Assembly: GCA_001797465.1 (NCBI GenBank)
Contig: MGPQ01000020.1
Span: 81,032-145,031 of the forward strand
DNA: 64,000 nt
Direction of reading: 5' to 3'
From: Deltaproteobacteria bacterium GWB2_55_19
Lineage (GTDB): Bacteria; Desulfobacterota; GWC2-55-46
Part shown: positions 24,935 through 42,186 of the stretch, one piece after another
How the letters are laid out: each line of letters starts with the position of its first letter
Numbering within the stretch: the stretch's first letter is position 1
Notes under the pieces: model-generated
Seen by the model: only the letters and a program-made list of their open reading frames with translations
The model's database searches: none
What the model was told of the DNA's origin: nothing
Made by a program: the position numbers and the translations under genes

Positions 24935-25357
24935 GTGGGGCTTTTAGCCAAAGAGGCTGACAGGTGGTTACGGCAGGCGGAGTATGATCTGCGTGCCGCG
25001 GAGTGGAACCAGCAGGGAGGTTTTTTCGCCCCGGCGTGTTTCCTGGCGCAACAGAGCGCGGCGAAGTCTCTGCGCTCGTTCCTCTTCTTTAACGGCGAGG
25101 ACGCGAGGGAGACCCGCTCCGTCGTCGAACTAATCGACCGCGCCATTACTTACGAAGAAGAGTTCAGGTCTTTCGTAGGGACTTCCACGAGCCTCGACAT
25201 CTACTACAAGACCTCCCGGTTCCCGGACGCCATACCCGGCGGCATACCTGCGGACGTCATAACTGAAAAGGACTCGAAGGACGCGGTGAAGCAGGCCTCA
25301 GACATAATCGCCGTCGTCGAGAGGAAGCGGAAGGGCTTTCTGCCGGAGACGATGTGA
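24935..25357 (+). CDS. HEPN-domain protein
   Basis: A 140-residue all-alpha HEPN protein. The N-terminal signature ADRWLRQAEYDLRAAEW and the ACFLAQQSAAKSLRSFL helix (34-50) match the HEPN group usually paired with an MNT nucleotidyltransferase as a toxin-antitoxin module. Where the family often has a His (THS-like before the VVELI helix), this protein has ETRSVVELI with Arg61, so the RNase-type R-x4-6-H motif looks absent. No MNT partner is adjacent. GTG start with AGGAGG at 24924-24929. Possible roles are a nucleotide-binding or inactive HEPN protein; function unknown. Confidence 0.8.
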   Translation: MGLLAKEADRWLRQAEYDLRAAEWNQQGGFFAPACFLAQQSAAKSLRSFLFFNGEDARETRSVVELIDRAITYEEEFRSFVGTSTSLDIYYKTSRFPDAIPGGIPADVITEKDSKDAVKQASDIIAVVERKRKGFLPETM

Positions 25358-25380: not shown

Positions 25381-26160
25381 TTGCCGGTGCCTGACGCCCT
25401 CTTGATAGTGCCTTTTCTGTTCGGGGCTGTTGTGGGGAGTTTCCTGAACGTCTGCATCTGCCGCCTCCCGGAAGGGGTCTCCGTCGTCTTCCCGCCGTCC
25501 CGGTGTCCCGCGTGCGGGGCGGGCATCCCCTTCTATTATAATATCCCGATACTCGGCTGGTTCATCCTCAGGGGCCGTTCCGCCTGTTGCGGTGCTCCCC
25601 TTTCTTTCAAGTATCCGCTCATCGAGGCCGTGACCGCGGTCTTCGCAGTCCTCCTTGCCGTAAGGTTCGGATACGGGGCCGAGCTCTTCGTCTACTTCAC
25701 ATTTGTCTCAGCGCTCATCGTCGTCACCTTCATCGATCTCAAGCACCAGATAATCCCGGACGTCATCAGCCTCCCCGGCATCGCCGTAGGGCTCATTCTG
25801 TCGTGGGTCATGCCCGTCGGCATAGTCGACGCGCTCATTGGCGTTGCCATTGGAGGAGGCATACTTTTCGGCATAGCCGCGGCCTACCTCCTCCTTACCG
25901 GCCAGGACGGCATGGGAGGCGGCGACATAAAACTCCTCGCCATGATAGGCGCCTTTCTCGGGTGGAAGGGTGTTATCGTGACGCTCCTTCTTGGGTCGTT
26001 CCTCGGGGCGGCGACAGGCGTCATTTTCATGGTCTTTGCCGGAAAGGGGGCGAAGTTCCCCATACCCTTCGGGCCGTTCCTCGCCGCAGGGGCGCTCGCG
26101 TACCTATTTTTCGGTGAAGAGCTCATTAACTGGTACATAATAAGGGCCGTCGGTCCTTAA
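25381..26160 (+). CDS. pilD: Prepilin peptidase (PilD/GspO)
   Basis: Aspartyl prepilin peptidase and N-methyltransferase (259 aa), an inner-membrane protein with about eight hydrophobic segments. Catalytic aspartates are Asp119 (TFIDLKHQIIPD) and Asp182 (GMGGGDIKLL). The cytoplasmic loop has RCPACGAGIPFYYNIP with Cys42 and Cys45. The second pair is irregular: SACCG, with Ser67 where the first Cys is expected and Cys69-Cys70 adjacent. It processes the prepilins encoded at 29.3-36 kb. TTG at 25381 is assumed; GTG at 25387 is equally possible and no clear SD distinguishes them. Confidence 0.93.
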   Translation: MPVPDALLIVPFLFGAVVGSFLNVCICRLPEGVSVVFPPSRCPACGAGIPFYYNIPILGWFILRGRSACCGAPLSFKYPLIEAVTAVFAVLLAVRFGYGAELFVYFTFVSALIVVTFIDLKHQIIPDVISLPGIAVGLILSWVMPVGIVDALIGVAIGGGILFGIAAAYLLLTGQDGMGGGDIKLLAMIGAFLGWKGVIVTLLLGSFLGAATGVIFMVFAGKGAKFPIPFGPFLAAGALAYLFFGEELINWYIIRAVGP

Positions 26161-26257: not shown

Positions 26258-27790
26258 ATGAGCGGTCTTAAGATGAAGCGCCAGCTTGGCATAAGGTTTC
26301 AGCTCATCGCCGGGATAGTCATCATGACGCTCTCCGGCATCGTCCTCATCGGGGCCTTGAGCGCGGTCATCATCGAGAGGACGGCCTTCAATTGGAAGGT
26401 GAACGAGGCCGAGAGGCTCGTCTCCTTCCTCCGCGCATCTTACCCATCCGAGACCGTTGACCCGTCTATCGGCTACCGCCATTTTGTCAGGACTTTGAAG
26501 GAGTTTGGCGCGGCCGAATACGCCATAGTCGGCCCCGGCGGGCGCCTCCTCGCCGGGGAGGCGAAGAAGCGCGAGTACGACGGCGGGGATGTCGTCTATT
26601 CAGGTGAGTCTCTGACTATCAAGAGGCTCGGGGGCGGGTGGTTCCGCGGCATGGGGGACGCCCTCCACGTTACCGCGCGGCTTAAGCAGTCCGGGAAGGA
26701 CGGATACATGACCTTCACGCTGCCCCTCTCAGGCGCGAGCGAGGACCTCTCCAGGGTCAGGAGGTTCCTCCTGATATACGCCCTCCTCGACGCCGTCGTT
26801 ATCGTCGTCTTCGGCGCCTATTTCCTCTCCCGCTACATAGTCGCCCCGATAAGGGCGCTCGACAAGGCGGCTACCCGCATAGCCGGAGGCAACCTGGATG
26901 AGAGGGCCGAAGCTCATGTCGATAACGAGGTCGGGTCCCTTGCCGCGTCCTTCAATACAATGGCCGATAGGCTCTCATCCGAGATTAAGAGCCTCGAGCG
27001 GGCGAACGAGGAGCTCAACACCGCGCAGGAGGAGTTGCTGCGATCTTCCACGCTCGCGGTCGTCGGAAGGCTCGCGGCGGGGATCGCCCACGAGGTAGGC
27101 AACCCGCTCGGCGCGGTCAACGGCTACCTCGACATCCTCGCCAGGGGCGGCTTGAGCAAAGACGAGGAAAGGGATATCCTTGAGAGGAGCGTAAGGGAGG
27201 TCTCCCGCATCGACTTCATCGTAAGGGAATTCCTTGAGATATCGAGGCCCGCTTCCCGCCCGCTTGAGCCTGTCGACATGAACTCGGTCGTAAGGGAGAC
27301 TGTTACGACGCTTGAGGCGCACAAAGATTTCAGGGGAATAGACACGGCCTTTGTGTTAAAAGAGGGACTGCCTCCGGTTTTGATCGACGCGAGGAAGCTC
27401 CGGCAGGTATTCATGAACATACTCATGAACGCGGCCCATTCTTTCGCCGGCGTCGAGGGCGCAAAAAAGGTGACGATAGAGTCCGGGACCGAGACGAGGA
27501 CAGTTGCGAGGAGGAGACGCAGGGACGACCCCCGGTTCTCGCCCTCTCCTGAAAGGGATTTTGTCTTCGTCCGCGTAACCGACATGGGCTCCGGCGTCAG
27601 CACGGAGGCCGCCTCCAGGATATTCGAGCCTTTCTACACGACCAAGGGGCCGTCCATGGGCACGGGGCTCGGGTTGTTCGTATCGCAGTCGATAATAAAT
27701 ACGTACGGCGGGGAGATAACGCTTTCGTCAAGCGAGGGCGCCGGGGCGTCGTTTACGGTCTCGCTTCCCGTCCCCGTTGAAAAGGCGTAA
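26258..27790 (+). CDS. Sensor histidine kinase (PilS-like)
   Basis: Membrane sensor kinase (510 aa). Transmembrane segments at about 16-39 and 170-191 enclose a periplasmic domain of about 130 residues. A HAMP linker (about 190-245) follows, then HisKA with phospho-acceptor His278 (GIAHEVGNPLG), then HATPase with the N box (MNILMNAAHSF), VTDMGSGVS and GTGLGLFVSQ. It lies 12 bases before an NtrC-type regulator, so they form a pair. Between pilD and pilin genes the natural reading is PilS. The topology differs from Pseudomonas PilS (six spans), so the stimulus may differ. ATG at 26273 is an alternative start. Confidence 0.9.
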   Translation: MSGLKMKRQLGIRFQLIAGIVIMTLSGIVLIGALSAVIIERTAFNWKVNEAERLVSFLRASYPSETVDPSIGYRHFVRTLKEFGAAEYAIVGPGGRLLAGEAKKREYDGGDVVYSGESLTIKRLGGGWFRGMGDALHVTARLKQSGKDGYMTFTLPLSGASEDLSRVRRFLLIYALLDAVVIVVFGAYFLSRYIVAPIRALDKAATRIAGGNLDERAEAHVDNEVGSLAASFNTMADRLSSEIKSLERANEELNTAQEELLRSSTLAVVGRLAAGIAHEVGNPLGAVNGYLDILARGGLSKDEERDILERSVREVSRIDFIVREFLEISRPASRPLEPVDMNSVVRETVTTLEAHKDFRGIDTAFVLKEGLPPVLIDARKLRQVFMNILMNAAHSFAGVEGAKKVTIESGTETRTVARRRRRDDPRFSPSPERDFVFVRVTDMGSGVSTEAASRIFEPFYTTKGPSMGTGLGLFVSQSIINTYGGEITLSSSEGAGASFTVSLPVPVEKA

Positions 27791-27802
27791 GGACATGAGG
27801 GG

Positions 27803-29200
27803 ATGAGGATACTCATCATAGACGACGAAGACTCGATGCGCCACATGCTCTCGGTGATCCTGAAGCGCGAGGGCTATGAGCCGGTCTCGGTCGCCGAGGC
27901 CGCGAAGGCGCTCGATCTCCTTGAGGCCGACGACTTCGACTTCATACTCTGCGACATAAAGATGCCTGGCCTCGACGGGCTCTCGTTCCTCAAGGCCCTG
28001 AAGGACAGGGGGCTTGCGCGCACAGTCATCATGATGAGCGCCTACGGGACGTTCGAAACGGCTCTCGAGTGCATGAAGCTCGGCGCCTACGACTATATCT
28101 CAAAGCCGTTCAAGGCCGACGAGATAGTGCTGACGGTCAAAAAGGCCGAGGAGAGGGAGAAGCTCAAGAGGGAGAATACGCGCCTTAAGGCGGATGCGCT
28201 CGAAGAGTACGACTTTACGAACATATTTACGATTGACGGGAATATGCTCTCCATACTCGGCCTCGTTCGGAAGGTCGCGGATTACACCACCTCAGTCCTC
28301 ATACTCGGGGAATCCGGCACCGGCAAGGAGCTCGTCGCCAGGGCCATACACTACGGTGGACAGAGGGCGCAGAAACCCTTTGTAACCGTCAACTGCGGGG
28401 CGATCCCCGGCGCGCTCCTTGAGAGCGAGCTCTTCGGGCACGTGAAGGGGGCGTTTACCGACGCGCACAGGACCAAGACAGGGCTCTTCCAGGAGGCAAA
28501 CGGCGGGACGATATTCTTAGACGAGGTGGGGGAACTCCCGATGGAGCTCCAGGTGAAACTGCTCCGCGTACTTCAGGAGGGGGAAATAAGGAAGGTCGGG
28601 GACACAAAGTCGGCCAAGGTAGACGCGCGGGTCGTAGCCGCGACCATTAAGGACCTGAAAGACGAGATACGAAAGGGGGCGTTCAGGGAGGACCTCTATT
28701 ACAGGCTGAACGTCATAGAGATAAAGCTCCCGACGCTACGTGAGAGGCCCTTTGACATACCCGGGCTCGCCGCGCGCTTCGTCGAAAAGTATTCAAGGAA
28801 GTTCGGCAAGCCTCCGAAGAGGGTATCGGAGGAGGCGTTAGCGATTCTCGCCGGGTATGCATGGCCGGGGAACATCCGGGAGCTTGAGAACGTGATTGAG
28901 CGGGCTATGATACTCGAGGAGACCGATACCATCAGGCCTAAGTCCCTGCCCATAGCCGGGCCGAACGCAGGGGGCAGGGCGTCATTGCAGGCGGCCGATG
29001 CCCTGGAGAGCCAGCTTTCGTCCGCTACGCCGCGCCGACCCTCAGACGACCTCTCCATCAAGCGCGCCCAGGAGGCGATGGAGAAAGACCTTATAAAAAG
29101 GGCGCTGGAAAGGACCCGCAACAACAAGACAAAGGCCGCAGAGATACTGGAAATAAGCCACAGGGCCCTCCTCTACAAGATAAAAAATTATGGACTATGA
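27803..29200 (+). CDS. NtrC-family sigma-54 response regulator (PilR-like)
   Basis: Sigma-54 activator (465 aa). Receiver domain (1-120) with phospho-acceptor Asp51 (CDIKMPGLDG) and Lys101. The AAA+ domain has Walker A GESGTGKE at 169-176, the sigma-54-contact loop as GAFTDA (216-221) rather than GAFTGA, and Walker B GGTIFLDEVGEL. A Fis-type helix-turn-helix closes the protein (about 425-462: NNKTKAAEILEISHRALLYKIKNY). A consensus sigma-54 promoter lies 63 bases downstream in front of the pseudopilin operon, so it likely controls that operon. AAGGA lies about 10 bases before the ATG. Confidence 0.92.
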   Translation: MRILIIDDEDSMRHMLSVILKREGYEPVSVAEAAKALDLLEADDFDFILCDIKMPGLDGLSFLKALKDRGLARTVIMMSAYGTFETALECMKLGAYDYISKPFKADEIVLTVKKAEEREKLKRENTRLKADALEEYDFTNIFTIDGNMLSILGLVRKVADYTTSVLILGESGTGKELVARAIHYGGQRAQKPFVTVNCGAIPGALLESELFGHVKGAFTDAHRTKTGLFQEANGGTIFLDEVGELPMELQVKLLRVLQEGEIRKVGDTKSAKVDARVVAATIKDLKDEIRKGAFREDLYYRLNVIEIKLPTLRERPFDIPGLAARFVEKYSRKFGKPPKRVSEEALAILAGYAWPGNIRELENVIERAMILEETDTIRPKSLPIAGPNAGGRASLQAADALESQLSSATPRRPSDDLSIKRAQEAMEKDLIKRALERTRNNKTKAAEILEISHRALLYKIKNYGL

Positions 29201-29305: not shown

Positions 29306-29788
29306 ATGTCTATAAAAGATGATTCGGGTATCTCATTGGCTGAGCTCCTTGTGGTGATAGCGTTGATGGGCGTAATAACCGTCATTGCCGTACCCGCGAT
29401 AGTAGGCCAGATGTCGCATTTGAGGCTTACGAGCTCGGTAAGGGACATTTCTACCGAGCTGAACGCCGCGAGGCTCAAGGCCATATCCAATAACACCATG
29501 TACAGGGTCCAGTTTACGCTCAACTCCGGCGCCGCCGATACGTACAGGCTCTACGTCTACGACGCGACCCTGGACTCCTGGTCGGCCGAGACTTCGAGGA
29601 CGACGAGGTCTCTTGAGGGCGGGATAAACATAAGCACTCCCTCCGCTGACTTCAATGTGGACTTCCGCCCGAACGGGTCTTCGACCGGGGCCTCCATATG
29701 CGTTGACAACACCGGGACCTCCGGCGACAGGATGGAGGTCACGGCGCAGACTTCAACAGGCATGATAACGATTACTACAGGGTGCTGA
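29306..29788 (+). CDS. Pseudopilin, FimT/GspH type
   Basis: Minor pilin (160 aa) with a short prepilin leader. Cleavage is expected at Gly8-Ile9 (SGISLAELLVV), with Glu at mature position 5, then a hydrophobic helix to about residue 32. A GspH/FimT-like domain follows (STELNAARLKAISNNTMYRVQF). The mature first residue is Ile rather than the usual Phe, though PilD enzymes tolerate this. First gene of a four-gene operon behind the sigma-54 promoter. Minor pilins prime assembly of the pilus at the inner membrane. Confidence 0.9.
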   Translation: MSIKDDSGISLAELLVVIALMGVITVIAVPAIVGQMSHLRLTSSVRDISTELNAARLKAISNNTMYRVQFTLNSGAADTYRLYVYDATLDSWSAETSRTTRSLEGGINISTPSADFNVDFRPNGSSTGASICVDNTGTSGDRMEVTAQTSTGMITITTGC

Positions 29789-29790
29789 AA

Positions 29791-30276
29791 ATGGGTAAGC
29801 GCGGGTTCACTCTTATAGAAGTCCTTATTGCGATGACCATACTTTCCATTGGCATACTCGGGGTAGCCGGGCTCGCCGGGACGGTCATCAGGTCATCGGG
29901 TTACAGCCAGGCGCTCACTCAGGCGACCAACATAGCCCAGGAAAAGCTCGAGACGCTCGTAAGCGTTGACTTTTCCAACATACAGGCTACCGACACCGCC
30001 ACCGCGCGCACTGACTTGAGGAGGACCTGCACGCAGACCGACTTTACCGCCTCAAAACCCGTATACACATGCGTGCCCACGACCGCCACAGTGACCGTCG
30101 GCGGCAAATCATATACCTGGGGATACACCGTCTCATACGTAGACCTTGACGCAAGCGGCACGGCAAGCGAGAACTCGGACGGACTGAAGAGGATAGACCT
30201 TACCGTATCCTGGACAGACGCCGTCTGGAGGGCTACAAAGAGCATCACGGCCGTAACCATGAGGACGAGGGGTTAA
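29791..30276 (+). CDS. Pseudopilin, PilV type
   Basis: Minor pilin (161 aa) beginning MGKRGFTLIEVLIAM. The leader is cut after Gly5, with Glu at mature position 5 and the PilV-like ILSIGILGVAGLAG segment, a feature of the PilV/GspI group. NIAQEKLETL follows. Two cysteines about 16 residues apart (near 73 and 88) may form a disulfide. The in-frame GTG at 29782 overlaps the previous gene, but the ATG at 29791 gives the standard short leader and is preferred. Second gene in the operon. Confidence 0.9.
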   Translation: MGKRGFTLIEVLIAMTILSIGILGVAGLAGTVIRSSGYSQALTQATNIAQEKLETLVSVDFSNIQATDTATARTDLRRTCTQTDFTASKPVYTCVPTTATVTVGGKSYTWGYTVSYVDLDASGTASENSDGLKRIDLTVSWTDAVWRATKSITAVTMRTRG

Positions 30277-30280
30277 TACT

Positions 30281-33200
30281 ATGAAGAACTGCGGCAAGGG
30301 CCTGACAGGAAGACGGACCGGGGCGGCGCGCGGCGCTGACCGCGGCTTCACGGTAGTGGAACTGATCATATCGATGTTCATAGTCGGGATAGTCGCCGCG
30401 GCTATTTTCACGCTCTACAACTCTTTTTACAGCGCGACCCGCTCGCAGGACCTGCTTTTGGAGGCTCAGCAGAACGCGAGGGTCGGCATAGACCTCATGG
30501 AAAGAGAGCTCGTCAACGCGGGCTACGACGCCGGCACCGCCGACATCTTAACCGAGGCGACGGCTAACTCCGTGGAGTTCACATACACCGACCCGTCCGA
30601 CAATACGACCGTAAGCCCGACCGCGGGGCAGAGGCTCAAGGTCAAGTACTCGCTCAGTACCGAGGCAGGCATCCAGTACCTGCAGAGGACCGAGAAGGTC
30701 ATGCCCGACGGCACCCCGGCCACCGAGAAGGTCATACCGTACGTCGACCAGTCCGGTGGTCTCACCCTGACCTATTACGACGTCGACGGCGCACTGATAG
30801 ACTACACCAGCATTGACGACGCAGGCGAGCAGTCGAACAGGAACGGCATTAAGTTCATTTCCGTCAGCCTGAAGACTACCGCAAAGGCCGCCGTGCAGGG
30901 CACTTCAGAGGTCAAGACGTTTACGCTCGACACGCACGTGATGCTCCGGAACATCGGGGTAGGCGCAACGTCCGCTGATACGACCGCCCCGGCGGCCCCG
31001 ACCGGCGTCCAGGTCAGGGACCCGGGGATATGCGCCAGGCTCAAGGTCAAGTGGACGAAGAACTCCGAGGGAGACATCGCCGGTTATAGGATATATTACG
31101 GGTCCGCGACCGGCACGTACACGGGCATACTCAACGTCCCGACGACTGTGCTCACCGGCTCGACCTACTCCTGCACGACCGTCTCCAGCACGATCGAGTG
31201 CACGATATTCCCGACGTCCCCGTCGCTCACCTATACGCCGTCCGACCCGTCGGGCGGGTCAGGCGCCACGTACTTTATCGCTGTCAAGGCCTACGACAAC
31301 TCCTATAATTACAGCGAGTATTCCTCCGAGGTGTCAGGGAGCCCGGCTACGAGCAACGCGACATTCGACACCGGCTCCGACGACTCCACCCTGAACCCGG
31401 TGAAACCAGCGGTCGTAACCGGCCTTTCCGCCGTTGACGGCGCAACCGACGGGCAGGTGGCGCTTTCGTGGAGCGCGTACAATACTACGGACAACCCGGA
31501 CGTCGTGGGCTTCAGGATATACAGGTCCACTGCCCCGTTCACGGCCTATCCTGTGGACCCGGCGTCCGCCGGCATAGACTGGATAGCCGGAGAGCCCGGG
31601 AGCGGCAAGCCCGAGATCTCGCAGACCTCGACCGCTTATACCGACGTCGGCCCGAGTCTTGCTGGTTGCACGGTCTACTACTACGCCATAGCCCCGGTCA
31701 ACTGCGACGCTACACTCATATCGGACAGCGGCGGCGACCCGGACAGCGAGAAATACCTCCAGACCAACTACGCGGCTACCTGCGGCAACGGCTCGACCGC
31801 CTGCACGCCGGGCACCGGGTTCTCCGCCGTCTCGGGGTCGGACACGGCCCCGAACGAGACGACGGCCCCTGACGCGCCTGTCATAGACGCGAGGGCCGGA
31901 TGGAAGAGGGTCGCGCTCTCGCTCACTCAGCCCGCGTCCACTGACCTCGACCAGACATGCTTTTATGAGAACGACAGCGCCACGTACCCGGCGCTCCTTA
32001 CCGACACCGGGTCCTACCCGAAGGTGAGCAATTGTTATCAGGTGAACACCGGCTCGACCCCTAACGCGAGGCTCGTGCCGGATTCCGGAGGCATATTCAC
32101 TTCTTCCGAGCTTGCACCGGGGCAGTCCACGTCCTTCTGGCACGATTCCATGACCGTCGAGGACCCTGGGACGCCGTCTCTCGCCGAGACAGGGACTTAT
32201 TCATACAGGGCCGTCTCGTTCGATCTCTGCGGCAACGGCTCGCCGTACACGAGCGCGCAGGCGACTACCATACTCTGCGGCGAGGACCCGGCCTCCGGCG
32301 AAAAACCGCCTGCGGTGACAGCTGTCTCGGCCTCGTGCTGTTCGAACCCGGTCTCCCTAACGTGGACGGGCGTTCCCAGCGATACCGGCTCGCCGTCCAC
32401 GCCGACGAACCCCTACGACCTCGCGGGATACAGGGTGTTCAGGTCGACGTCAGTGGACTTTACCGGCTCGACGATGGTCTCGGGTGCCGCGCCGTACTGG
32501 GGCTCGACATACAGCGACACGTCGGTATCCGACGGCGGGACGTACTATTACAGGATAGTCTCCACCGATTGCCCGTACGAGAGGAACAACCCCTCGGAGG
32601 CGACGATAAAGAGCGACATGCTGAGCGGGTATCTCAATTCCGTAACCGTTGGGCCGGTGACGCCCGGGCAGATAGACAGGGATGAGAAGTGCGAGGACCC
32701 GGTCGCGCCGACCGACAACTCATGCACAAAGGACGACCACAGGGAGGCGCTGACCGGCGTTGACGTCAACAACTCGACTGGGACCGGCAACAGCACTACT
32801 ACGCCGAAGAGCGAGTACACCCACGAGACCGTTACCATGTACTTGAGCAACACCGCCGCCGGCGCGATGACCATCCAGAACATTAGCGTAAGCTGGGTCA
32901 ACTCAGGCGCGTACCTGCGGGAGATAAAGATCGGAGGCGGAAGGAGCGGCATCACCGCAATCGATACCAACATAGCCGCTGGCGCGACAGCCACAGTGAC
33001 CGGCAACGACCCTTACACCAGGGCGGTTACTGACGCTACCATCACCACAGGGACGATAACGGCAGGGGCCCGTTATGTCCCCATAACCTTCAAGTTCAAG
33101 GACGCGAGCGACTCAGCCGTCGACATGCGTGACGACCAGCTGTTGATAACGATCAAGGCCCGGAACGACAGCACCTCCACCACACAGTGCCTGTCGTACA

Positions 33201-34699
33201 TGACCGTTTCCAGGGGCCTCGAAGGGGTCTCCGTGCCGTTCGGCCCGTCGATATCCGCGACCCAGCAGGACAAACCGGCCTCCCCGACCTTCAGTTATGC
33301 CGTCCCCGGGTCGTCCGGCAGTAACACCGTGCCTTCCGGCTCTGTTGCGCCGATAGAGGCGCCCTCGAGCGTTACGGTCACGGTCTCGGCGAGCATACAG
33401 GGCAATACGACCAACCAGGCTACGGGCCTTAAAGTGGCGGTCTCGTCGGCTACACTCTATTACAAGGCCACGGCAAATACAGTCACCACGGCGCCTACCT
33501 CAGGGTATACATCGGTCTCGATGACGAACGCGAGCGGCAATACATGGACCGGCGCCATTCCGGCGAACGACGGGTTCAGGCTCTGGTATTACATAGTCGC
33601 CAAGGACGCGGACGGCAACTGGGACCGCGACCCTGAGAAGACCGAGGGGGCCTATGTCTATGACCAGGGCGAGTTCGACGTATGCCTTGTAACCCCTAAC
33701 GCGCCGACGAGCCTACAGGCCTCGCCGAGCGGGTCCGACGTGGCCCTTGTCTGGACCGCGCCGACCACATACACGAACGGCGCTACTATCGACACCGGGC
33801 TCGACCCGATACAGTACAGGATATACAGGGGAGGGACGCAGATAGGGTCGGACCAGGCAGGGACGACTTATTCCGACACGGGCCTCGCCAACGGCGTCTA
33901 CGGCTACTATGTGAAGGCGATAAACTCCTGCGCCGACCCGTCGCCGAACGTCAGCGCTGAGTCCAACACGGCCTCTGCGTGCGTCGGGGCCACCGGACAG
34001 GCGACCATTACAGTCACCCCCACGTCCATTTACAGGGGGGAGAGCTATACCGTCACAATAGTAGACTGCCTCGCCATAAACGGCGCGTACTCGGCTACGA
34101 CTGAAGTCATAAACACGTCGAGCGGCTTTACCGGGTTTACGAACACATCCACCGCGCCCGGCTCCTACAACCCGACGATAACCGAGACCGGCCCGGCGAC
34201 CGGCACGTTCACCAAGACCATTACGACGACGAGCGACGTGACTGACTCAACAAAGCTCCTGACGCTCGCTACAGACACCGTGACCGTCACCTACCCGTAT
34301 GCGAGTCCGTCGTCCAGGACCGTAAGCGTCGTAGTTGACCCGTGCACGAACACCCCGAAGGCCCCGACGGGCTTCACCGGGACGATTGTAAGCAACAACG
34401 CGAACCTCTCGTGGACGGCGGTCACGCAGAACACCGACAACTCGGCGATAACCGACCTCGTTGGATACAAGATATACGAGAGGGTCTGCGCCAAGAACAA
34501 GACCAACTGCACAGGCTCCGACATAGTCGCGGAGTGGTTTCTGAGGACTACGGTAGCGGCCGGCACGACTACGGCGAGCCTCGGGCCGGACCAGGGCGCA
34601 TGGAACCAGAGGATATACTACTTCAAGGCGACGGCGTACGACTCCTGTTCAACGCCGGTGGAGAGCGCCTACTCATCCACTTGGAACGAGACAAACTGA
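30281..34699 (+). CDS. Giant PilW-type pseudopilin with FN3-like repeats
   Basis: A 1472-residue prepilin. Leader cleavage is expected at Gly22-Phe23 (RGFTVVELIISMFIVG), Glu at mature position 5, followed by a PilW-like domain to about residue 230 (ATRSQDLLLEAQQNARVGIDLMERELVNAGYD). PilW proteins are usually 200-400 residues. The remaining roughly 1240 residues are Thr/Ser/Pro-rich and hold several fibronectin-III-like units, starting near APAAPTGVQV (about 236), PAVVTGLSAV, PPAVTAVSA, NAPTSLQASP and KAPTGFTGT, many containing G(Y/F)R(I/V)(Y/F). At least one further Ig-like unit and paired cysteines are present. Third gene of the sigma-54 operon. A pilus-borne adhesin is inferred. Confidence 0.9.
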   Translation: MKNCGKGLTGRRTGAARGADRGFTVVELIISMFIVGIVAAAIFTLYNSFYSATRSQDLLLEAQQNARVGIDLMERELVNAGYDAGTADILTEATANSVEFTYTDPSDNTTVSPTAGQRLKVKYSLSTEAGIQYLQRTEKVMPDGTPATEKVIPYVDQSGGLTLTYYDVDGALIDYTSIDDAGEQSNRNGIKFISVSLKTTAKAAVQGTSEVKTFTLDTHVMLRNIGVGATSADTTAPAAPTGVQVRDPGICARLKVKWTKNSEGDIAGYRIYYGSATGTYTGILNVPTTVLTGSTYSCTTVSSTIECTIFPTSPSLTYTPSDPSGGSGATYFIAVKAYDNSYNYSEYSSEVSGSPATSNATFDTGSDDSTLNPVKPAVVTGLSAVDGATDGQVALSWSAYNTTDNPDVVGFRIYRSTAPFTAYPVDPASAGIDWIAGEPGSGKPEISQTSTAYTDVGPSLAGCTVYYYAIAPVNCDATLISDSGGDPDSEKYLQTNYAATCGNGSTACTPGTGFSAVSGSDTAPNETTAPDAPVIDARAGWKRVALSLTQPASTDLDQTCFYENDSATYPALLTDTGSYPKVSNCYQVNTGSTPNARLVPDSGGIFTSSELAPGQSTSFWHDSMTVEDPGTPSLAETGTYSYRAVSFDLCGNGSPYTSAQATTILCGEDPASGEKPPAVTAVSASCCSNPVSLTWTGVPSDTGSPSTPTNPYDLAGYRVFRSTSVDFTGSTMVSGAAPYWGSTYSDTSVSDGGTYYYRIVSTDCPYERNNPSEATIKSDMLSGYLNSVTVGPVTPGQIDRDEKCEDPVAPTDNSCTKDDHREALTGVDVNNSTGTGNSTTTPKSEYTHETVTMYLSNTAAGAMTIQNISVSWVNSGAYLREIKIGGGRSGITAIDTNIAAGATATVTGNDPYTRAVTDATITTGTITAGARYVPITFKFKDASDSAVDMRDDQLLITIKARNDSTSTTQCLSYMTVSRGLEGVSVPFGPSISATQQDKPASPTFSYAVPGSSGSNTVPSGSVAPIEAPSSVTVTVSASIQGNTTNQATGLKVAVSSATLYYKATANTVTTAPTSGYTSVSMTNASGNTWTGAIPANDGFRLWYYIVAKDADGNWDRDPEKTEGAYVYDQGEFDVCLVTPNAPTSLQASPSGSDVALVWTAPTTYTNGATIDTGLDPIQYRIYRGGTQIGSDQAGTTYSDTGLANGVYGYYVKAINSCADPSPNVSAESNTASACVGATGQATITVTPTSIYRGESYTVTIVDCLAINGAYSATTEVINTSSGFTGFTNTSTAPGSYNPTITETGPATGTFTKTITTTSDVTDSTKLLTLATDTVTVTYPYASPSSRTVSVVVDPCTNTPKAPTGFTGTIVSNNANLSWTAVTQNTDNSAITDLVGYKIYERVCAKNKTNCTGSDIVAEWFLRTTVAAGTTTASLGPDQGAWNQRIYYFKATAYDSCSTPVESAYSSTWNETN

Positions 34700-34710: not shown

Positions 34711-36000
34711 ATGAAGATGCCTGAGACGACCAATAAGGGAGACAAGACGGGGCAGGAGGGGTTTGTCCTGATACTCGCCCTCGTCACCATGCTCGCGATG
34801 ACGCTCATCGGTTTGAGCGTCATCATGAGCTCTACGACCGACCTTCAGCTCGCGAGGAACGACCGCGACGCCAAGCTCGCGTTCCAGCTCGCCGAGGCCG
34901 GCATAAACGAGGCCTCCGCGAGGCTCCACCTGTCGTCCTCCAACGCCAGGTATGTAGGCGAGGTCGAGGGCGAATCCGGTTACAGGACTGTAAGCTGGAA
35001 CGCCGCCAACGCGCTCGGCAAGGACTTCGGCTACAACGTCGGCGGCAACAGGAACAGCGCGGACAACCTCAACTACACGGTCAACATAAGCTATCTTGTC
35101 GAGGGCAACACGGAGAACTACTGCGACAGCAACAACACCGCCGACAACGCCCCCTTGACCGCGACGGTCCCGCCGGCTAGTTGCCCCAACAGCCCGGCGG
35201 AGGTCGTGATGTACGGCCAGGACTTTAACCTCGACGCGAGCTTGACGTATATCGAGTACGGTCTGCTCCCGGTCTATGAGATTACCTCCACTGGCACCTC
35301 CAACGGCGTGACAAGGACGGTAGTAGCCTACCTCGGCGAGAGCAACCTGAATACCGACTCTCAGTACCCGATATTCACCAACGGATGCGTGGACGCGAGC
35401 GGCGTACCCAATACCCTCACAGGCGACCCGTCGGTGCCGGGTAGCGACGTCGTCATGCAGGCGACCGGGTGCGCGTGCGACCCTCAGCTGAGCCTCTCAT
35501 GCAGTACAAGCACCGACCCGGTGGACATGAACACATATTTAGGCGACACGCTCGCCAACATCGCGACCTACTCCGACGAGTACCACTCGTGCAAGAGCGC
35601 GGGATGCAATACCGCCGGGGACGACATCCCCTCGAACGGCAGGCTCGATAACGGCGTCGTCCAGAACTGGGAGGGTGCCGACCCGACCGAGGGGGTGCTC
35701 CTCTTTATCGACAACTCCGGCGGCGAGGACGCCACGATAGGCGGCAACGTCAGCGGCGAGGGGATACTCATCGTTACCGGCAACCTCTCCATAAGCGGCA
35801 ACATCACCTGGGAGGGGCTCATCTACGTACTCGGGACCCTTACGGTCTCGGGCACTGTGGACGTCCACGAGGGGGGGATGATGACAGGATCGACCGTGCT
35901 CCTTAACGGCAACGTCACCGTAAACTACGACAGGGAAGAGCTCCTTGAGATGTCGAGGCAGACGTCCACCTCGGCGAAGATAGTCTGGAAGAGGCTCTGA
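34711..36000 (+). CDS. PilX-type minor pilin
   Basis: Minor pilin (429 aa) of the PilX_N group. GQEGFVLILALVTMLAMTLIGLSVIM gives a leader ending at Gly17. It lacks Glu at mature position 5, as Pseudomonas PilX does. NDRDAKLAFQLAEAGINEASARL continues the N-terminal helix. The C-terminal 110 residues form short parallel-beta-like repeats (GGNVSGEGILIVTGNLSISG, WEGLIYVLGTLTVSG), a common tail of PilX-like proteins. An out-of-frame open reading frame extends upstream into the giant pilin gene; the ATG at 34711, 11 bases after that gene, is the sensible start. Last gene of the operon, with a strong terminator downstream. Confidence 0.88.
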   Translation: MKMPETTNKGDKTGQEGFVLILALVTMLAMTLIGLSVIMSSTTDLQLARNDRDAKLAFQLAEAGINEASARLHLSSSNARYVGEVEGESGYRTVSWNAANALGKDFGYNVGGNRNSADNLNYTVNISYLVEGNTENYCDSNNTADNAPLTATVPPASCPNSPAEVVMYGQDFNLDASLTYIEYGLLPVYEITSTGTSNGVTRTVVAYLGESNLNTDSQYPIFTNGCVDASGVPNTLTGDPSVPGSDVVMQATGCACDPQLSLSCSTSTDPVDMNTYLGDTLANIATYSDEYHSCKSAGCNTAGDDIPSNGRLDNGVVQNWEGADPTEGVLLFIDNSGGEDATIGGNVSGEGILIVTGNLSISGNITWEGLIYVLGTLTVSGTVDVHEGGMMTGSTVLLNGNVTVNYDREELLEMSRQTSTSAKIVWKRL

Positions 36001-36087
36001 CGGTCACTGTGATTGGAAGCCATTACGTTCCGCGCCGTCACGCGTTTTGAGCGCATTCTCCTGAAAGCTGAAAGTGTAATAAACCGC

Positions 36088-36128
36088 ATGGGCCGCCGGG
36101 CTTTTCGCCCGGCGGCCCATGTTTTTTT
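36088..36128 (+). terminator. Strong intrinsic terminator of the pseudopilin operon
   Basis: A perfect 14-bp stem, ATGGGCCGCCGGGC (36088-36101) with its complement at 36107-36120, has a TTTTC loop and is followed by GTTTTTTT. It closes the sigma-54 operon. Confidence 0.95.
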
Positions 36129-36335: not shown

Positions 36336-36533
36336 ATGGCCAGAAATAAACTAAAAAATATACGAGAGAACCTGCTTCTGAGCAAATCCGAACTCGCTCG
36401 CAAGGCAGGCATCTCGCCGCTTACCGTAGACAGGATAGAGCGCGGCTTCCCATGCAGGGTGGACACCAAGAGGAAGATAATACACGCTCTGGGGCTGAAG
36501 GTAACGGACAAGGGAAAGGTCTTTACGGACTGA
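36336..36533 (+). CDS. XRE/Cro-CI-type DNA-binding protein
   Basis: A 65-residue single-domain helix-turn-helix protein: NIRENLLLSKSELARKAGISPLTVDRIERGFPCRV matches the Cro/C1 fold (helices 2-3 at about 17-38). It starts the pilMNOPQ transcript, ten bases before pilM, and is therefore a likely autoregulator or pilus-gene regulator. It has no sensing domain of its own. A possible operator is the palindromic A/T-rich DNA upstream. Its base use matches its neighbours, so recent phage origin is not indicated. Confidence 0.87.
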   Translation: MARNKLKNIRENLLLSKSELARKAGISPLTVDRIERGFPCRVDTKRKIIHALGLKVTDKGKVFTD

Positions 36534-36543
36534 CCGGGGGTAT

Positions 36544-37602
36544 ATGAATCTGCCGTTTTTGAAGAAAAAGGACGCCGTCGCCTTCGACATAGGCTCCAAT
36601 TCCATAAAGCTCGTCCAGATGAGCCAGACAAAGAAGGGATGGGAGCTTACCAAGCTCGGCATGGCCGAACTCCCGCCCGAGGCGATCGTCGACGGCTCCA
36701 TAATCGACTCCATGACGGTCACAAACACGCTTAAGGACCTCATCAGGGAGCACGGGGTCAAGGTCAAGGACGCCGTCTCCTCGCTCACCGGACACTCAGT
36801 CATCATAAAAAAAGTCAGTTTCCCCGCCATGTCCGAGGAAGAGCTCGCCGATTCCATCCAGTGGGAGGCCGAGCAGTACATCCCGTTCCCGATAACCGAC
36901 GTCAACATCGATTTTCAGATACTCGGCGCCGACACCGAGGGCAGGGGCCAGATGGACGTAATGCTGGTCGCGGTCAAGAAGGACGTCATAAACGACTATA
37001 CGAACGTCATCAAGGAGGCGGGGTTGAACCCCGTCGTCATCGACGTCGACTCCTTCGCACTCGAGAACATGATGGAGATAAACTACCCGGTGGCCCCAGG
37101 CGAGAACATCGCGATGGTGAACATCGGCGCCTCCATCACCTCCATAAGCGTCATATTCGCCGGGCTCACCATATTCACCCGTTCGATACCGATGGGCGGC
37201 AACCAGTTCACCGAAGAGATACAGAGACAGCTTAACGTGAGTTTCAAGGACGCCGAGGAGATGAAGACCGGGAAGAAGGCAGAGGGCGAGACGCCGATAG
37301 CCCCGGCTGTCGAGTCTATCGCCTCGAACCTCACCTTCGAGGTGAAGAGGTCGCTGGACTTTTTCCTCGGCGGCTCCCAGGGTTCTTACGTCAGCAAGAT
37401 ATACCTCTCCGGCGGCGGCTCGCTGGCGCCGGGGCTTAAGGACCTCATGCAGGAGAAGACCACCATCCCGGCGGAAGTGGTGAACCCGTTCAAGAATGTT
37501 GAGGCCAACCCCAAGCACTTCGACAAGGAAAAGCTCAAGGACTCGGCCCCGTTCTTCGCAGTGGCCGTGGGGCTTGCCACGCGGAGGTTCGCAGACAGAT
37601 GA
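36544..37602 (+). CDS. pilM: Type IV pilus assembly ATPase-like protein PilM
   Basis: Actin/FtsA-like cytoplasmic protein (352 aa) that binds the N-terminus of PilN on the inner face of the membrane. AFDIGSNSIKLVQ near the N-terminus is the phosphate-1 motif. ISSISVI-like and LSGGGSLAPGL near residue 300 form the second nucleotide-binding half. The N-terminal LPFLKKKD segment precedes the first strand as in other PilM proteins. It overlaps pilN by four bases (ATGA). Full family length. Confidence 0.95.
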   Translation: MNLPFLKKKDAVAFDIGSNSIKLVQMSQTKKGWELTKLGMAELPPEAIVDGSIIDSMTVTNTLKDLIREHGVKVKDAVSSLTGHSVIIKKVSFPAMSEEELADSIQWEAEQYIPFPITDVNIDFQILGADTEGRGQMDVMLVAVKKDVINDYTNVIKEAGLNPVVIDVDSFALENMMEINYPVAPGENIAMVNIGASITSISVIFAGLTIFTRSIPMGGNQFTEEIQRQLNVSFKDAEEMKTGKKAEGETPIAPAVESIASNLTFEVKRSLDFFLGGSQGSYVSKIYLSGGGSLAPGLKDLMQEKTTIPAEVVNPFKNVEANPKHFDKEKLKDSAPFFAVAVGLATRRFADR

Positions 37603-38171
37603 TCCGCATAAACCTCCTGCCCGTAAGGGCCGCAAAGAAAAAGGAATCGCTCCGGTTCCAGCTGACGGTAGCCGGTCTCGTGAGTTTTCTCGTCATCGTA
37701 CTGGCCCTCGGCGCGTACTTTACGGTGAGGAACGAGGCGGGCGGGCTGAAGGACCAGCTGGCGCAGGGCGAACAGGAGATCTCGGAGCTTAAAAAGAAGA
37801 TAGGCGAGCTCTCGAAGATAAAAGAGCAGAAGAGGATAGTAGAGGAGAAACTGAAGGTCATAACCAGTCTCGAGGCCGCGAGGACCGGCCCTGTCGAGCT
37901 CTTCAGGAAGATAGGCGAGGCCATACCTGAGAGGGCCTGGCTCGCCTCCATGAAGGACGAGGGGGCGGCTGTCGTCGTCAAGGGCTACGCCTCCGACGAC
38001 GAGGTGGTCGCGGACTTCATGAGGGGGCTTCAGAAGTTCAAGGACCTCGGGGTGGTCGAGCTGGAGGTCGCCCAGAGGCTGATCGAGAAGGAAACCGGCT
38101 CGGACCTCGTGGGCTTCACCATAAGGCTCGAGAAGACGATCGAGAAGCCCCAGCCCAAGGAGAAGAAATAA
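37599..38171 (+). CDS. pilN: Type IV pilus inner-membrane protein PilN
   Basis: Bitopic membrane protein (190 aa). The cytoplasmic N-terminal MIRINLLPVR motif docks into PilM. One transmembrane helix (about 24-44) is followed by a coiled coil (about 50-90) and a ferredoxin-like periplasmic domain, which pairs with PilO. Start ATG overlaps the pilM stop. Typical length and order. Confidence 0.94.
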   Translation: MIRINLLPVRAAKKKESLRFQLTVAGLVSFLVIVLALGAYFTVRNEAGGLKDQLAQGEQEISELKKKIGELSKIKEQKRIVEEKLKVITSLEAARTGPVELFRKIGEAIPERAWLASMKDEGAAVVVKGYASDDEVVADFMRGLQKFKDLGVVELEVAQRLIEKETGSDLVGFTIRLEKTIEKPQPKEKK

Positions 38172-38172
38172 C

Positions 38173-38781
38173 ATGGCCCTTGCGCTGCCTAAGATAAATC
38201 CGGAAATAATAATGAAGCTCCCGCTCCCGAAGCGGGCGGCGATACTCGCGGCGGTGAACGTCGTGGTCGTCGGGCTCATCTACTGGTTCCTCATAGGCCC
38301 CAAGTACGCTGAGGTCAAGGACCTCCGCGTACAGCTCCAGGACCTGAACGTCAAGCTGAACGAGAACAGGCAGATAGCCGCCGACATCCCGAAGTTCATT
38401 CAGGAAAAGGACGAGATGGAGCAGAAACTCAAGGCCGCGGTCGCCCAGCTCCCGAACGAAAAGGAGATCCCCGACCTCATAGACAGCATAAGCGAGGCCG
38501 GGCAGAGGGCGGGCCTCAAAATACTGCTCTTTAAGCCCGAACGCGAGAACAAGAAGGGCTTTTACGCGGAGGTGCCGGTCTCGATGATGGTGGAGGGCAG
38601 GTTTGAGAGCCTCTACGACTTCAGCGACAAGGTAGGCAAGCTCCCGAGGATAGTGAACATCAGCGGCATGGACATATTATCGATTGCGCACAAGAACAGG
38701 ATCCCACAGCTCAAAGCGAACTTCACGTCCACGACCTTCAGGTTCATACCGATGCAGGGCGAAGGAGAGCCTAAGAAATAA
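38173..38781 (+). CDS. pilO: Type IV pilus inner-membrane protein PilO
   Basis: Bitopic protein (202 aa) with a transmembrane helix at about 22-41 (AAILAAVNVVVVGLIYWFLI), a periplasmic coiled coil (about 50-90) and a C-terminal ferredoxin-like domain. It heterodimerises with PilN and contacts PilP. It begins one base after pilN and shares the TAATG junction with pilP. Confidence 0.94.
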   Translation: MALALPKINPEIIMKLPLPKRAAILAAVNVVVVGLIYWFLIGPKYAEVKDLRVQLQDLNVKLNENRQIAADIPKFIQEKDEMEQKLKAAVAQLPNEKEIPDLIDSISEAGQRAGLKILLFKPERENKKGFYAEVPVSMMVEGRFESLYDFSDKVGKLPRIVNISGMDILSIAHKNRIPQLKANFTSTTFRFIPMQGEGEPKK

Positions 38782-39302
38782 TGGCAAGGAGATTCGTAAT
38801 ACTCTTTTTAGCGGCGTCCCTCTCGCTCGCGATTACGGCCTGCAAGAAGGAAGAGCCCAAGCCGGAAGAGCCCATTAAAAAGGCCCAGCCTGCGGCGCAG
38901 GCCGCCCCGCAGGCCGCCCCAGCTTCGATAGACGCATCAGCGAAGGCGGATGCGAGTGTAGAGGCCTCCAGGCGCAGGAACCCGTTCCAGAGCCACATCC
39001 TTCTGCTCCGCGGGACCGCGGACGGCCCGAGGAAGATAAAGGGGCCGCTCGAATGCTGCGAGCTGGCCCTCTTCAAGGTGCACGCAATAGTAGCCGCCAG
39101 AGACGGCGCGTTCGCGCTCGCGCAGGCCCCCGACGGCAAGAGGTATGTCGTAAGGAAGGGCGACGTCATCGGCACCAAGGAAGGCAAGGTCATAAAGATA
39201 GACGGCAGGGCGATAACGGTAAGGGAGTTCACGAGGGACCAGGAAGGCAAGGTCATCTCGACAGATGACACCGATTTGAAGCTCCCTGCCGAAAGGAGAT
39301 AG
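38781..39302 (+). CDS. pilP: Pilus assembly lipoprotein PilP
   Basis: Lipoprotein (173 aa) that links the PilN/PilO complex to the secretin. A signal peptide ends in the lipobox LAITAC with lipidated Cys21. A low-complexity Pro/Ala/Lys linker (about 24-60) is followed by the HR-type beta domain (about 70-165) containing the family pattern RRNPFQ. ATG overlaps the pilO stop by one base. Confidence 0.93.
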   Translation: MARRFVILFLAASLSLAITACKKEEPKPEEPIKKAQPAAQAAPQAAPASIDASAKADASVEASRRRNPFQSHILLLRGTADGPRKIKGPLECCELALFKVHAIVAARDGAFALAQAPDGKRYVVRKGDVIGTKEGKVIKIDGRAITVREFTRDQEGKVISTDDTDLKLPAERR

Positions 39303-39378: not shown

Positions 39379-42186
39379 ATGCGTATGACAGACGATCGGT
39401 TGAGGCACGGCCTCATCGGCTCCATCCTTGCCGGCGCGCTTATCTTCACTGGTTGCGCCTCAACGGGGCCGAAGGACATAAAGGGGGACGTCGCGCCATC
39501 GAGCGTAGCCGGGGCTCCTGAGCCCCAAAAAGAGGCGGCCGCCCCGAACGTCGTCTCTGTCGAGTACATAAACGTAGTCGGCGACGGCGACAGGGTCATG
39601 ATAGCCACGACCGGGCCCGTCAAGTTTACGGCCTTCAGGCTATCCGAGCCCTCAAGGCTCATACTCGACCTCCCGGGCGTCAACCTCGACAAGGTCCCGG
39701 CCTCTCTCTCCGTGAACAACGCGTTCGTTGGAGAGATAACGTCGGCGACCTACGGGGAAGGCAAGGACATAGGCAGGGTCGTCATAGGGCTTAAGGACGG
39801 GGTCGACCACGACGTCAAATCCGGCGATAACAGCATACTCGTCAGCCTCGCCGCCCCTGTTTCAGCCGTTGCCCTCCAGCCCGTTGCTGAGACGGTGAAG
39901 GCCCCGGCGCAGGCCGCACTTGTTGAGCCGATAAAGGTCGAAGACCTTGCCCCCCAGGCGAAGCCGATGAAGCAGGCCTCAGCCGTCGTCAGGGTGGCCG
40001 AGTCAAGGGACGGAGAGAACACCGTCATAAGGATAGTGAGCGACGGGCTTCTCGGGAATTACAGCACGTTCGATCTGGACAGCCCCGGGAGGATCGTCAT
40101 AGACGTCTGGGATGTGGACAGTTCCATCGGCAAGGACGTGGTAAGGCTTGAAGGAAAGTATCTCAAGACCGTAAGGGTCGGGACCCACGCCGACAAGGCG
40201 CGTTTCGTCTTTGACGCGGCGGGTAAGAAGCTCCAGCCCCATTCGATAAAGCGCGTAGACGGCGAGATAGTCGTCACGATCGGGCCGAAGGTCGTGCCTG
40301 TCGTTGACGAGGCCGCGATGCCGTCCAGAAAGCCAGTCAAAAAGGCCGAGCAGGTAAAGACGGCCAAGGCGGAGAAAAACGCGGAAACTAAGAAGGAGGC
40401 CGCGGAGGCCCAGAAGGCCGCTGTGGCCGTAAGCGTTGTTGAGGGACCGAAGGCCGAGCCGGAAAAGACCGTTGAAAAGGCCGTAACGCCCGAGAATGCA
40501 TTAAGGGTCGAGAAGGTCGAGTTCAGGCGCGTCGAAGGCGCGGGCGCTCTCTCCATAGCCACGAACGCGAAGGCCGAGTACGATGTGAAAGAGTCCGCGG
40601 ACGGCATGACCGTTACGATAGACATCAAGGGCGCTACAATCTCCGAGGAGCTTACAAGGACGCTGGACGCCGGAAAGCTCAATACCCCGGTCGCGACCGT
40701 CAGCTCGTTCCAGGGCGCCGCTGAGCCCAAAGAGGTCCGCGTAATAGTGAAGCTCAGGGAAAAGGCCCCGTACACGGTAACGGACGGGGACGGCACGCTT
40801 AAACTGAATTTCGCTGCGACAGCCGCCGAGACGGCGCCGGCTGTAAAGGCGCAGTCCGAAGCGGATAAACCGGCGGATAAGGAAGCTCCCCTTCTGGCTG
40901 ATAAGCGCGAGTACACGGGCGCTAAGATAGACCTCGACATGATGGACGCTAACGTCAGCGACGTGCTCCGTCTCCTTGCCGAGATAAGCAACATGAACAT
41001 CATAGCCTCAGACGACGTAAAGGGCACGATATCGCTACGGCTCAAAAATGTGCCGTGGGACCAGGCCTTTGACATAATACTCCGTTCGAAGGACTTGGAC
41101 AGCGTCCAGGAGGGCAACGTCATAAGGGTCGCCCCGGCCACCAAGATAAGGCTGGAGAAGGAATCCGTCCTGGCCTCCCGCAAGGCGCAGGAGAAGCTTG
41201 AGAACCTCGACACTCACTTCATCCCCATCAACTACGCCACGTCCACCGACCTCATAAAGTCGGTCCAGAGCGTGCTTACCGAAAGGGGAACGGTCACTAA
41301 CGACATCAGGACGAACACCATCATAGTAAAGGACATCAAGGCCGGGGTCGAGGCGGCGAAAAACCTCATCACCAAGCTCGACACCGCGATACCGCAGGTC
41401 CTTATAGAGGCGCGGATAGTAGAGGCCTCAACGAGCTTCGCCAGGGACTTAGGGATACAGTGGGGCCTTGATTACGGCACCGGCGGCTCCACCTCGACGC
41501 AGACTTTCGGATCGAGCGGCACGACCGGCCAGGCGACCGACAGGATGCAGACGCCGAACTCGAACATACAGGTCTCCGGCGCAGACCAGTACGCTGTTAA
41601 CCTCCCGGCCTCCGGCAACGCAGGCACGCTCGGCGCGCTCGGTTTCCTCCTCGGCAGCGCCGGTTCCAATCCGTTCCTTCTGGACTTGAGGCTCTCGGCC
41701 GGCGAGTCTGAAGGAAGGCTCAAGACCATATCGAGGCCGAGGATCACGACGATGGACAACAAGGAGGCGAAGATCGAGCAGGGCGAGTCCATCCCCTTCG
41801 AGACGACCTCGTCGGCCGGCACCGCAACGACGTTCATCGACGCGAACTTAAGCCTGACCGTCACGCCCCACATAACGCCTGACGGGTCGGTCCTCATGAA
41901 GATAAAGGCGTCGAGAAACTCCATAGGCACGTTCAGGACCTCAGGCGGAGAGCCTTCGATAAACAAGAAGGAGTCCTCTACCGAGGTCCTCGTGAGGGAC
42001 GGCGAGACGACCGTCATAGGCGGGATAGTGATAACGGATAAGAGCGATTCCGATCAGGGCATACCGTACCTCCAGGACATCCCGCTCATCGGATGGCTCT
42101 TCAAGTCCAAGTCCGTCTCCGACTCCCAGACCGAGCTCCTTATCTTCATAACCCCTACCATCATAAAAGACAAGATCAAGGCCTGA
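39379..42186 (+). CDS. pilQ: Type IV pilus secretin PilQ
   Basis: Outer-membrane secretin (935 aa) through which the pilus emerges. The signal peptide has a lipobox (IFTGC, Cys26), so it is probably a lipoprotein. Three AMIN domains (about 55-155, 205-305 and 375-480), which bind peptidoglycan, are separated by Ala/Lys/Glu-rich linkers. An STN/N0 domain (about 515-585) and an N1-type domain lead to the secretin barrel (about 690-930; ITTMDNKEAKIEQGESIPF, VGGIVITD-type end). Three AMIN domains are more than in many PilQs. The next feature is a strong terminator. Confidence 0.95.
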   Translation: MRMTDDRLRHGLIGSILAGALIFTGCASTGPKDIKGDVAPSSVAGAPEPQKEAAAPNVVSVEYINVVGDGDRVMIATTGPVKFTAFRLSEPSRLILDLPGVNLDKVPASLSVNNAFVGEITSATYGEGKDIGRVVIGLKDGVDHDVKSGDNSILVSLAAPVSAVALQPVAETVKAPAQAALVEPIKVEDLAPQAKPMKQASAVVRVAESRDGENTVIRIVSDGLLGNYSTFDLDSPGRIVIDVWDVDSSIGKDVVRLEGKYLKTVRVGTHADKARFVFDAAGKKLQPHSIKRVDGEIVVTIGPKVVPVVDEAAMPSRKPVKKAEQVKTAKAEKNAETKKEAAEAQKAAVAVSVVEGPKAEPEKTVEKAVTPENALRVEKVEFRRVEGAGALSIATNAKAEYDVKESADGMTVTIDIKGATISEELTRTLDAGKLNTPVATVSSFQGAAEPKEVRVIVKLREKAPYTVTDGDGTLKLNFAATAAETAPAVKAQSEADKPADKEAPLLADKREYTGAKIDLDMMDANVSDVLRLLAEISNMNIIASDDVKGTISLRLKNVPWDQAFDIILRSKDLDSVQEGNVIRVAPATKIRLEKESVLASRKAQEKLENLDTHFIPINYATSTDLIKSVQSVLTERGTVTNDIRTNTIIVKDIKAGVEAAKNLITKLDTAIPQVLIEARIVEASTSFARDLGIQWGLDYGTGGSTSTQTFGSSGTTGQATDRMQTPNSNIQVSGADQYAVNLPASGNAGTLGALGFLLGSAGSNPFLLDLRLSAGESEGRLKTISRPRITTMDNKEAKIEQGESIPFETTSSAGTATTFIDANLSLTVTPHITPDGSVLMKIKASRNSIGTFRTSGGEPSINKKESSTEVLVRDGETTVIGGIVITDKSDSDQGIPYLQDIPLIGWLFKSKSVSDSQTELLIFITPTIIKDKIKA

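Follow-up and report, generated by a model that had tools for sequence, protein, structure and literature searches.

Results

The window analysed here, a 64,000-nucleotide stretch of the genome of Deltaproteobacteria bacterium GWB2_55_19 (contig MGPQ01000020.1), carries a gene cluster for type IVa pili (T4aP) whose minor pilin PilW is 1472 residues long. The gene order is argJ (so named by its sequence), a HEPN-domain gene, pilD, a histidine kinase gene, a sigma-54 regulator gene, fimT, pilV, pilW, pilX, a small helix-turn-helix (HTH) gene and pilMNOPQ. PilW is encoded together with fimT, pilV and pilX, as expected of a core minor pilin. This PilY1-free cassette takes the chromosomal place of the pilY1 cassette of relatives. 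The parts of PilW are as follows.

30281..34699, + strand: pilW, modular minor pilin, 1472 aa, pilin module and nine Ig/FN3-like domains
30281..30976, + strand: prepilin leader (residues 1-22) and pilin module (23-232), GspJ/PilW type, Glu5 kept
30986..31351, + strand: D1, FN3, residues 236-357 (fn3 in orthologues)
31412..31870, + strand: D2, FN3, residues 378-530
31871..32284, + strand: D3, FN3-like by model, residues 531-668 (internal homology weak)
32300..32665, + strand: D4, FN3, residues 674-795
32723..33280, + strand: D5, Ig-like beta sandwich by model, residues 815-1000 (fold barely covered by VIA-align)
33281..33679, + strand: D6, Ig/FN3-like by model, residues 1001-1133
33686..33985, + strand: D7, FN3, residues 1136-1235
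33986..34345, + strand: D8, Ig-like by model, residues 1236-1355
34346..34696, + strand: D9, FN3, residues 1356-1472

A sequence-only reading had described a 1472-residue PilW-type pilin with a normal prepilin N-terminus and a chain of FN3-like domains, and our analysis bears this out. The class III signal peptide scored 25.7 bits for N_methyl (Pfam cut-off 21.2), and Gly22 and Glu27 are kept in all 34 aligned rows. The N-terminal module has a predicted GspJ-type pilin fold, with the alpha-1 helix at residues 25-77 of the structure model. Beyond residue 230, where the reading had staked itself on FN3 or Ig folds, modelling predicts an FN3-type tail of 1,240 residues with nine Ig/FN3-like domains that are not pilus-specific. 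In the two models, VIA-align covered mainly residues 234-667 and 214-698, and the structure matches listed were Ig/FN3-type or pilin. PF00041 (fn3) exceeded its cut-off in five of six orthologues (P0011, P0013, P0022, P0044 and P0051, not P0055). At E 0.01 the window PilW (P0001) neither reached the PF00041 gathering cut-off nor matched PF05567, the beta-propeller hallmark of PilY1/PilC; a search against PHROGs gave a weak N-terminal match only.

Homologues of near full length (1418-1642 aa) lie on dozens of contigs, and the pilin part alone as query found 25 proteins, every one of them already among the matches of the full-length query. Mean identity to the window PilW is 52-60% for the tail domains versus 43% for the beta part of the pilin. 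Tandem-repeat expansion in the DNA was rejected, with 0 arrays. One 1719-aa fn3 protein, P0064, shares 28% identity over 82% of the PilW query and has no N_methyl Pfam match listed; it may be a relative that has diverged, or a tail lacking the pilin module.

PilY1, noted earlier as missing from the cluster, was not found elsewhere in the genome either. PF05567 had no match in the source genome (G000, 100% complete, 0.54% contamination) at E<=10, and our own profile had none at E<=1e-8; its 17 source sequences were PilY1 proteins of relatives, with divergent ones as long as 1861 aa among them. As a positive control, PilY1 was found in 31 of the 63 genomes of the class with PF05567 and in 34 with our profile, while 14 control genomes gave one sub-cut-off PF05567 match at E<=10 and none at stricter limits. 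Uncut PilY1 proteins of the class measure 1058 to 1861 aa, and some fall below the PF05567 cut-off. Within the limits of these two profiles, neither of which matched, we reject a PilY1 elsewhere in the source genome.

The remaining genes of the cassette and those bordering it are these.

25381..26160, + strand: pilD, prepilin peptidase, slot flank
26258..27790, + strand: histidine kinase, slot flank
27803..29200, + strand: sigma-54 response regulator, upstream border of the slot
29306..29788, + strand: fimT/GspH-type minor pilin, 160 aa (GspH 25.1 bits, cut-off 21)
29782..30276, + strand: pilV-like minor pilin, 164 aa (N_methyl 38 bits, cluster position)
34711..36000, + strand: pilX, long form, ~429 aa, no Glu5, mature start FVLIL (PilX_N 45.6 bits, length class)
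36544..37602, + strand: pilM, downstream border of the slot, start of pilMNOPQ
37599..39302, + strand: pilN, pilO and pilP, named by position and by relatives' homologues and conserved order, not by Pfam
39379..42186, + strand: pilQ secretin

We then compared this slot across the class, mapping genes on stretches around pilM, PilY1 and PilW that were picked for such matches and are not random. Between the sigma-54 regulator and pilM lies one of two cassettes. Type A consists of fimT-pilV-long pilW-pilX and has no pilY1. Type B consists of pilV-short pilW (~300 aa)-pilX (~140 aa mature)-pilY1 (~1070 aa)-lipoprotein-like gene-fimT; distant families show variants of it. When genes up to 8 kb from pilM or the main regulator are counted, a long PilW turns up in 22 genomes, PilY1 in 20 and both in 0 (21 of the 63 untyped); these counts come from related, non-independent genomes, of which G020 has two PilY1 slots. 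The type A genome G009 and the type B genome G018 belong to the same genus. They share 89-92% DNA identity in the flanks on both sides of the slot, and their cassettes (6.7 and 7.1 kb) have no mutual DNA match at E 1e-10. Outside its slot, G009 also keeps a type B cassette, which matches the slot cassette of G018 at 80% identity over 6.65 kb. Since pilM is linked to the slot, the PilM tree (50 genomes, 41 typed) is a tree of the slot's flank; 9 changes of slot type can be counted on it, without regard to direction, and supported branches carry at least 6 of these. Slot type is still clustered by kinship (9 changes versus a shuffled mean of 13.9).

The lipoprotein-like gene between pilY1 and fimT (L057:12322-13329) encodes ~300 aa with a Big_9 Ig domain over cut-off, and had no phmmer match in the long-PilW stretches. 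The off-slot pilY1 cassettes of L047, L052 and L119 carry their own NtrC-like regulator (262-270 bits to the slot regulator), which suggests that such cassettes are regulated and moved as units. In G047 (L120:4669-14785), as in L045, each of four genes (regulator, long pilW, pilX, pilM) is interrupted by frameshifts or stops; with so many broken genes in a row, uncorrected sequencing errors are likelier than decay.

PilX differs between the cassettes. Its mature length is bimodal, with 29 short (138-187 aa) and 37 long (362-533 aa) proteins among 70 PilX rows, four of which were dropped (three contig-end cuts, one frameshift) and in which the multiple PilX of L156, L159 and L161 were each counted. 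PilY1 lies within 3 kb of 28 of the 29 short PilX and of none of the 37 long ones. The one exception among the short PilX (L162:384-932) comes from a genome that contains PilY1, though not within those 3 kb. These counts point to PilX length, not the FN3 tail, as the feature that tracks the absence of PilY1.

Long PilW occurs in 24 of the 63 class genomes, tallied by hand. Some are split by contig ends (G005, G016 and G025 lie over contigs left unjoined), that of G035 measures 1073 aa, and those of G038 and G044 are on contigs lacking slot anchors. G017 and G023 were left out of the count: they have a long-type PilX beside pilM, and the contig ends before pilW.

To follow the tail beyond the class, we searched a sample of 395 phylum genomes, taken from a larger group (E<=1e-25, two candidates per genome scored); the 19 matches are a lower bound. 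Full-length long PilW was also present in a second family (G075, G112, G147), and ten other genomes had a related PilW without tail. Seven of these ten (G188, G413, G115, G127, G238, G078, G253) carry it in pilY1-free cassettes with a long PilX, adjoining pilD, and six of the seven lack PilY1 by either profile, G188 having one elsewhere. Of the other three, G436 has PilY1 inside the cassette, and G263 and G095 have it in the genome. In a tree of the pilin module the tailed proteins formed one group (support 93/94, just below the tool's mark for firm support). Inside it, with the tailed protein of G053 (100/99), falls the PilW of G054, which ends just past the pilin module; this genome is 100% complete, has no PilY1 and keeps the long PilX. 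From these sequences G054 seems to have lost the tail. Since the tailed group is single and G054 is nested in it, one gain and one loss of the tail is the simplest history, the direction being our reading of an unrooted tree. Some tailless pilY1-free cassettes contain two long pilX in tandem (L156:10122-12643, L159:10329-12883), and L161:1080-9838 holds two pilV-pilW sets with four PilX-like genes.

Further features of the cluster lie outside the cassette.

24935..25357: HEPN-domain gene (79.5 bits), between argJ and pilD
36086..36122, + strand: terminator-like hairpin with T run between pilX and pilM, 16 pairs, 13 G-C
36336..36533: small HTH_3 (Cro/C1-type) gene, 65 aa, between pilX and pilM, behind the hairpin, which is a strong one

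The HEPN gene holds the same place in nearly all class slots with both neighbours mapped and is absent in L062. The HTH_3 gene may control the pilMNOPQ operon separately from the tip cassette. The scan gave 6 terminator-like sites versus 5.0 in shuffles, a total not above shuffles, and 5 promoter-like sites versus 2.7. Two PilT-family genes in the source genome exceed the cut-off; by this gene content the T4aP would be retractable, and the two ATPases suggest that the pilus retracts. The source organism and its relatives are uncultured.

Discussion

We found a PilW-type modular minor pilin in a PilY1-free cassette, and consider it probable that this cassette starts T4aP without PilY1 while the tail, displayed close to the tip, works as an adhesive arm. 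PilD would cut the prepilin after Gly22, and FimT, PilW, PilV and PilX would stack as in known T4aP tips. From its family, PilW would be part of the tip or priming complex. The four minor pilins would prime the pilus without PilY1, the long PilX, which has no Glu5, capping the stack with no need of a PilY1 partner. The tail, presumably braced by disulphides, would have joined PilW after the PilY1-free cassette arose; it would pass the PilQ secretin, project near the tip and bind surfaces or cells. Tip priming and adhesion may be joined in one chain, as the sequence-only reading had suggested.

Several points weigh against this proposal. In the available part of the Myxococcus xanthus work, pili cannot be extended without PilY1. 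Pfam recognised neither a lectin nor a vWA domain, nor any other binding domain, in the PilW tail, orthologues included. PilY1 is also present in 7 of the 24 long-PilW genomes (G002, G004, G006, G009, G045, G046, G047), and 12 of the 63 genomes have neither long PilW nor PilY1, partly through assembly gaps. The genome-wide anticorrelation is moderate: PilY1 is present in 7/24 long-PilW genomes versus 27/39 others (Fisher p 0.0038, without correction for kinship). On independent tree pairs, which are too few, it does not reach significance (0 same way, 2-5 opposite, median p 0.125). The sequence-only reading had named a pilY1 gene elsewhere, co-occurring with this protein in relatives, as evidence against itself. 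The seven genomes have such a gene: the slot never contains both, and their PilY1 always lies outside it, in a separate cassette or (G045) in pieces on two small contigs. Thus, the two tip systems can coexist.

Taken strictly, that reading also casts the tail as the substitute for PilY1, the fusion of priming pilin and adhesin having made PilY1 dispensable. A PilY1-free cassette at the pilY1 slot agrees with this, as do the absence of any slot with both tail and PilY1 and the lack of PilY1 in all three f26 long-PilW genomes. However, the cassette does not owe its lack of PilY1 to the tail, because the tailless long-PilX cassettes of G413, G115, G127, G238, G078 and G253 occur in genomes without PilY1, and G054, nested among tailed relatives, lacks both. 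We regard replacement by the tail as very unlikely. An unrecognised protein encoded outside the cluster could instead do the job of PilY1, leaving the tail an ordinary adhesive module. Tip effectors can be encoded away from the cluster, and the PilY1 proteins of the class vary widely in length, some escaping PF05567; but the profile that includes divergent forms had no match in G000 either, and the slot swap exchanges the entire cassette, PilY1 included. This, too, we find unlikely.

The tail might also be no adhesin at all, acting as a spacer, a cell-cell clamp, a brace of the pilus or secretin, or a mineral binder. The listed fold matches, solely Ig/FN3-type or pilin with no ligand-binding domain recognised, would suit such a role. 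Conservation domain by domain, higher in the tail than in the pilin beta part, is what a binding surface might show and argues against it, weakly, for a brace could show the same; on balance we judge it improbable. An assembly join or misread frame, in favour of which we saw nothing, has virtually no probability and was rejected, given the homologues of near full length on dozens of contigs and the long PilW in 24 of the 63 class genomes.

We return to a pilus started by the PilY1-free cassette. In the available text of PMC13190605, models pair PilX with PilY1 by beta-strand complementation. A self-completing long PilX would account for this as well as for the PilX length split, and we infer that it needs no PilY1 partner. 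On a wider scale, we tentatively put forward two interchangeable T4aP tip systems that compete for one slot: a short PilX with PilY1, or a self-closing long PilX that makes PilY1 unnecessary and leaves adhesion free to move to the PilW chain. This wider scheme is possible, and we hold it with reserve.

We take IPR003961 to be the FN3 entry. Modular pilins are known, and the accessible portion of PMC8179133 lists this entry with the extra modules found in the 15 commonest architectures. As in PilB and PilC of Streptococcus sanguinis, a pilin module is followed by domains not specific to pili; the tip location of those proteins is argued from size (same portion). In place of the usual minor pilins, that species has a set that includes two modular ones (PMC10191384, available part). 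The window PilW has 1472 residues and 9 domains versus 860 residues and 12 domains in the most extreme modular pilin given in the seen part of PMC8179133. Unlike modular pilins, it is encoded with fimT, pilV, pilX and a PilQ secretin, has no recognised binding domain and sits in the place of a pilY1 cassette. The four minor pilin types and a PilX without Glu5 recall the PilY1/minor-pilin priming complex of M. xanthus, as far as the available account of it goes; unlike that complex, there is no PilY1, the tail is on PilW, and mature PilX has 413 aa versus 138 aa in the pilY1 cassettes of relatives, about threefold longer. CofB/TcpB and GspK are likewise enlarged minor pilins thought to sit at the filament tip (PMC8179133, in the part available), whereas here it is the PilW/GspJ-type subunit that is enlarged, by C-terminal Ig/FN3 domains. 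Some Myxococcota (Chondromyces, Sandaracinus, Haliangium) have no pilY1 cluster beside their pil genes, and the accessible text describes no substitute cassette or slot exchange for them (PMC13190605). Nor is such a cassette described in the available parts of PMC8179133, PMC10191384, PMC7541494 and PMC13190605, and in the open-licence literature we found no paper that reports pilY1 cassettes being exchanged for pilY1-free ones or two length classes of PilX.

In diderm type IVa pili, the conserved complex for priming and tip is taken to include PilY1. One slot that holds either pilY1 or a PilY1-free cassette, with at least six supported changes, is a natural experiment on what a pilus tip needs, and the tailed and tailless forms of one cassette allow priming to be separated from adhesion. 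If there are indeed two interchangeable tip systems, PilX length would be a simple genomic predictor of PilY1-independent pili.

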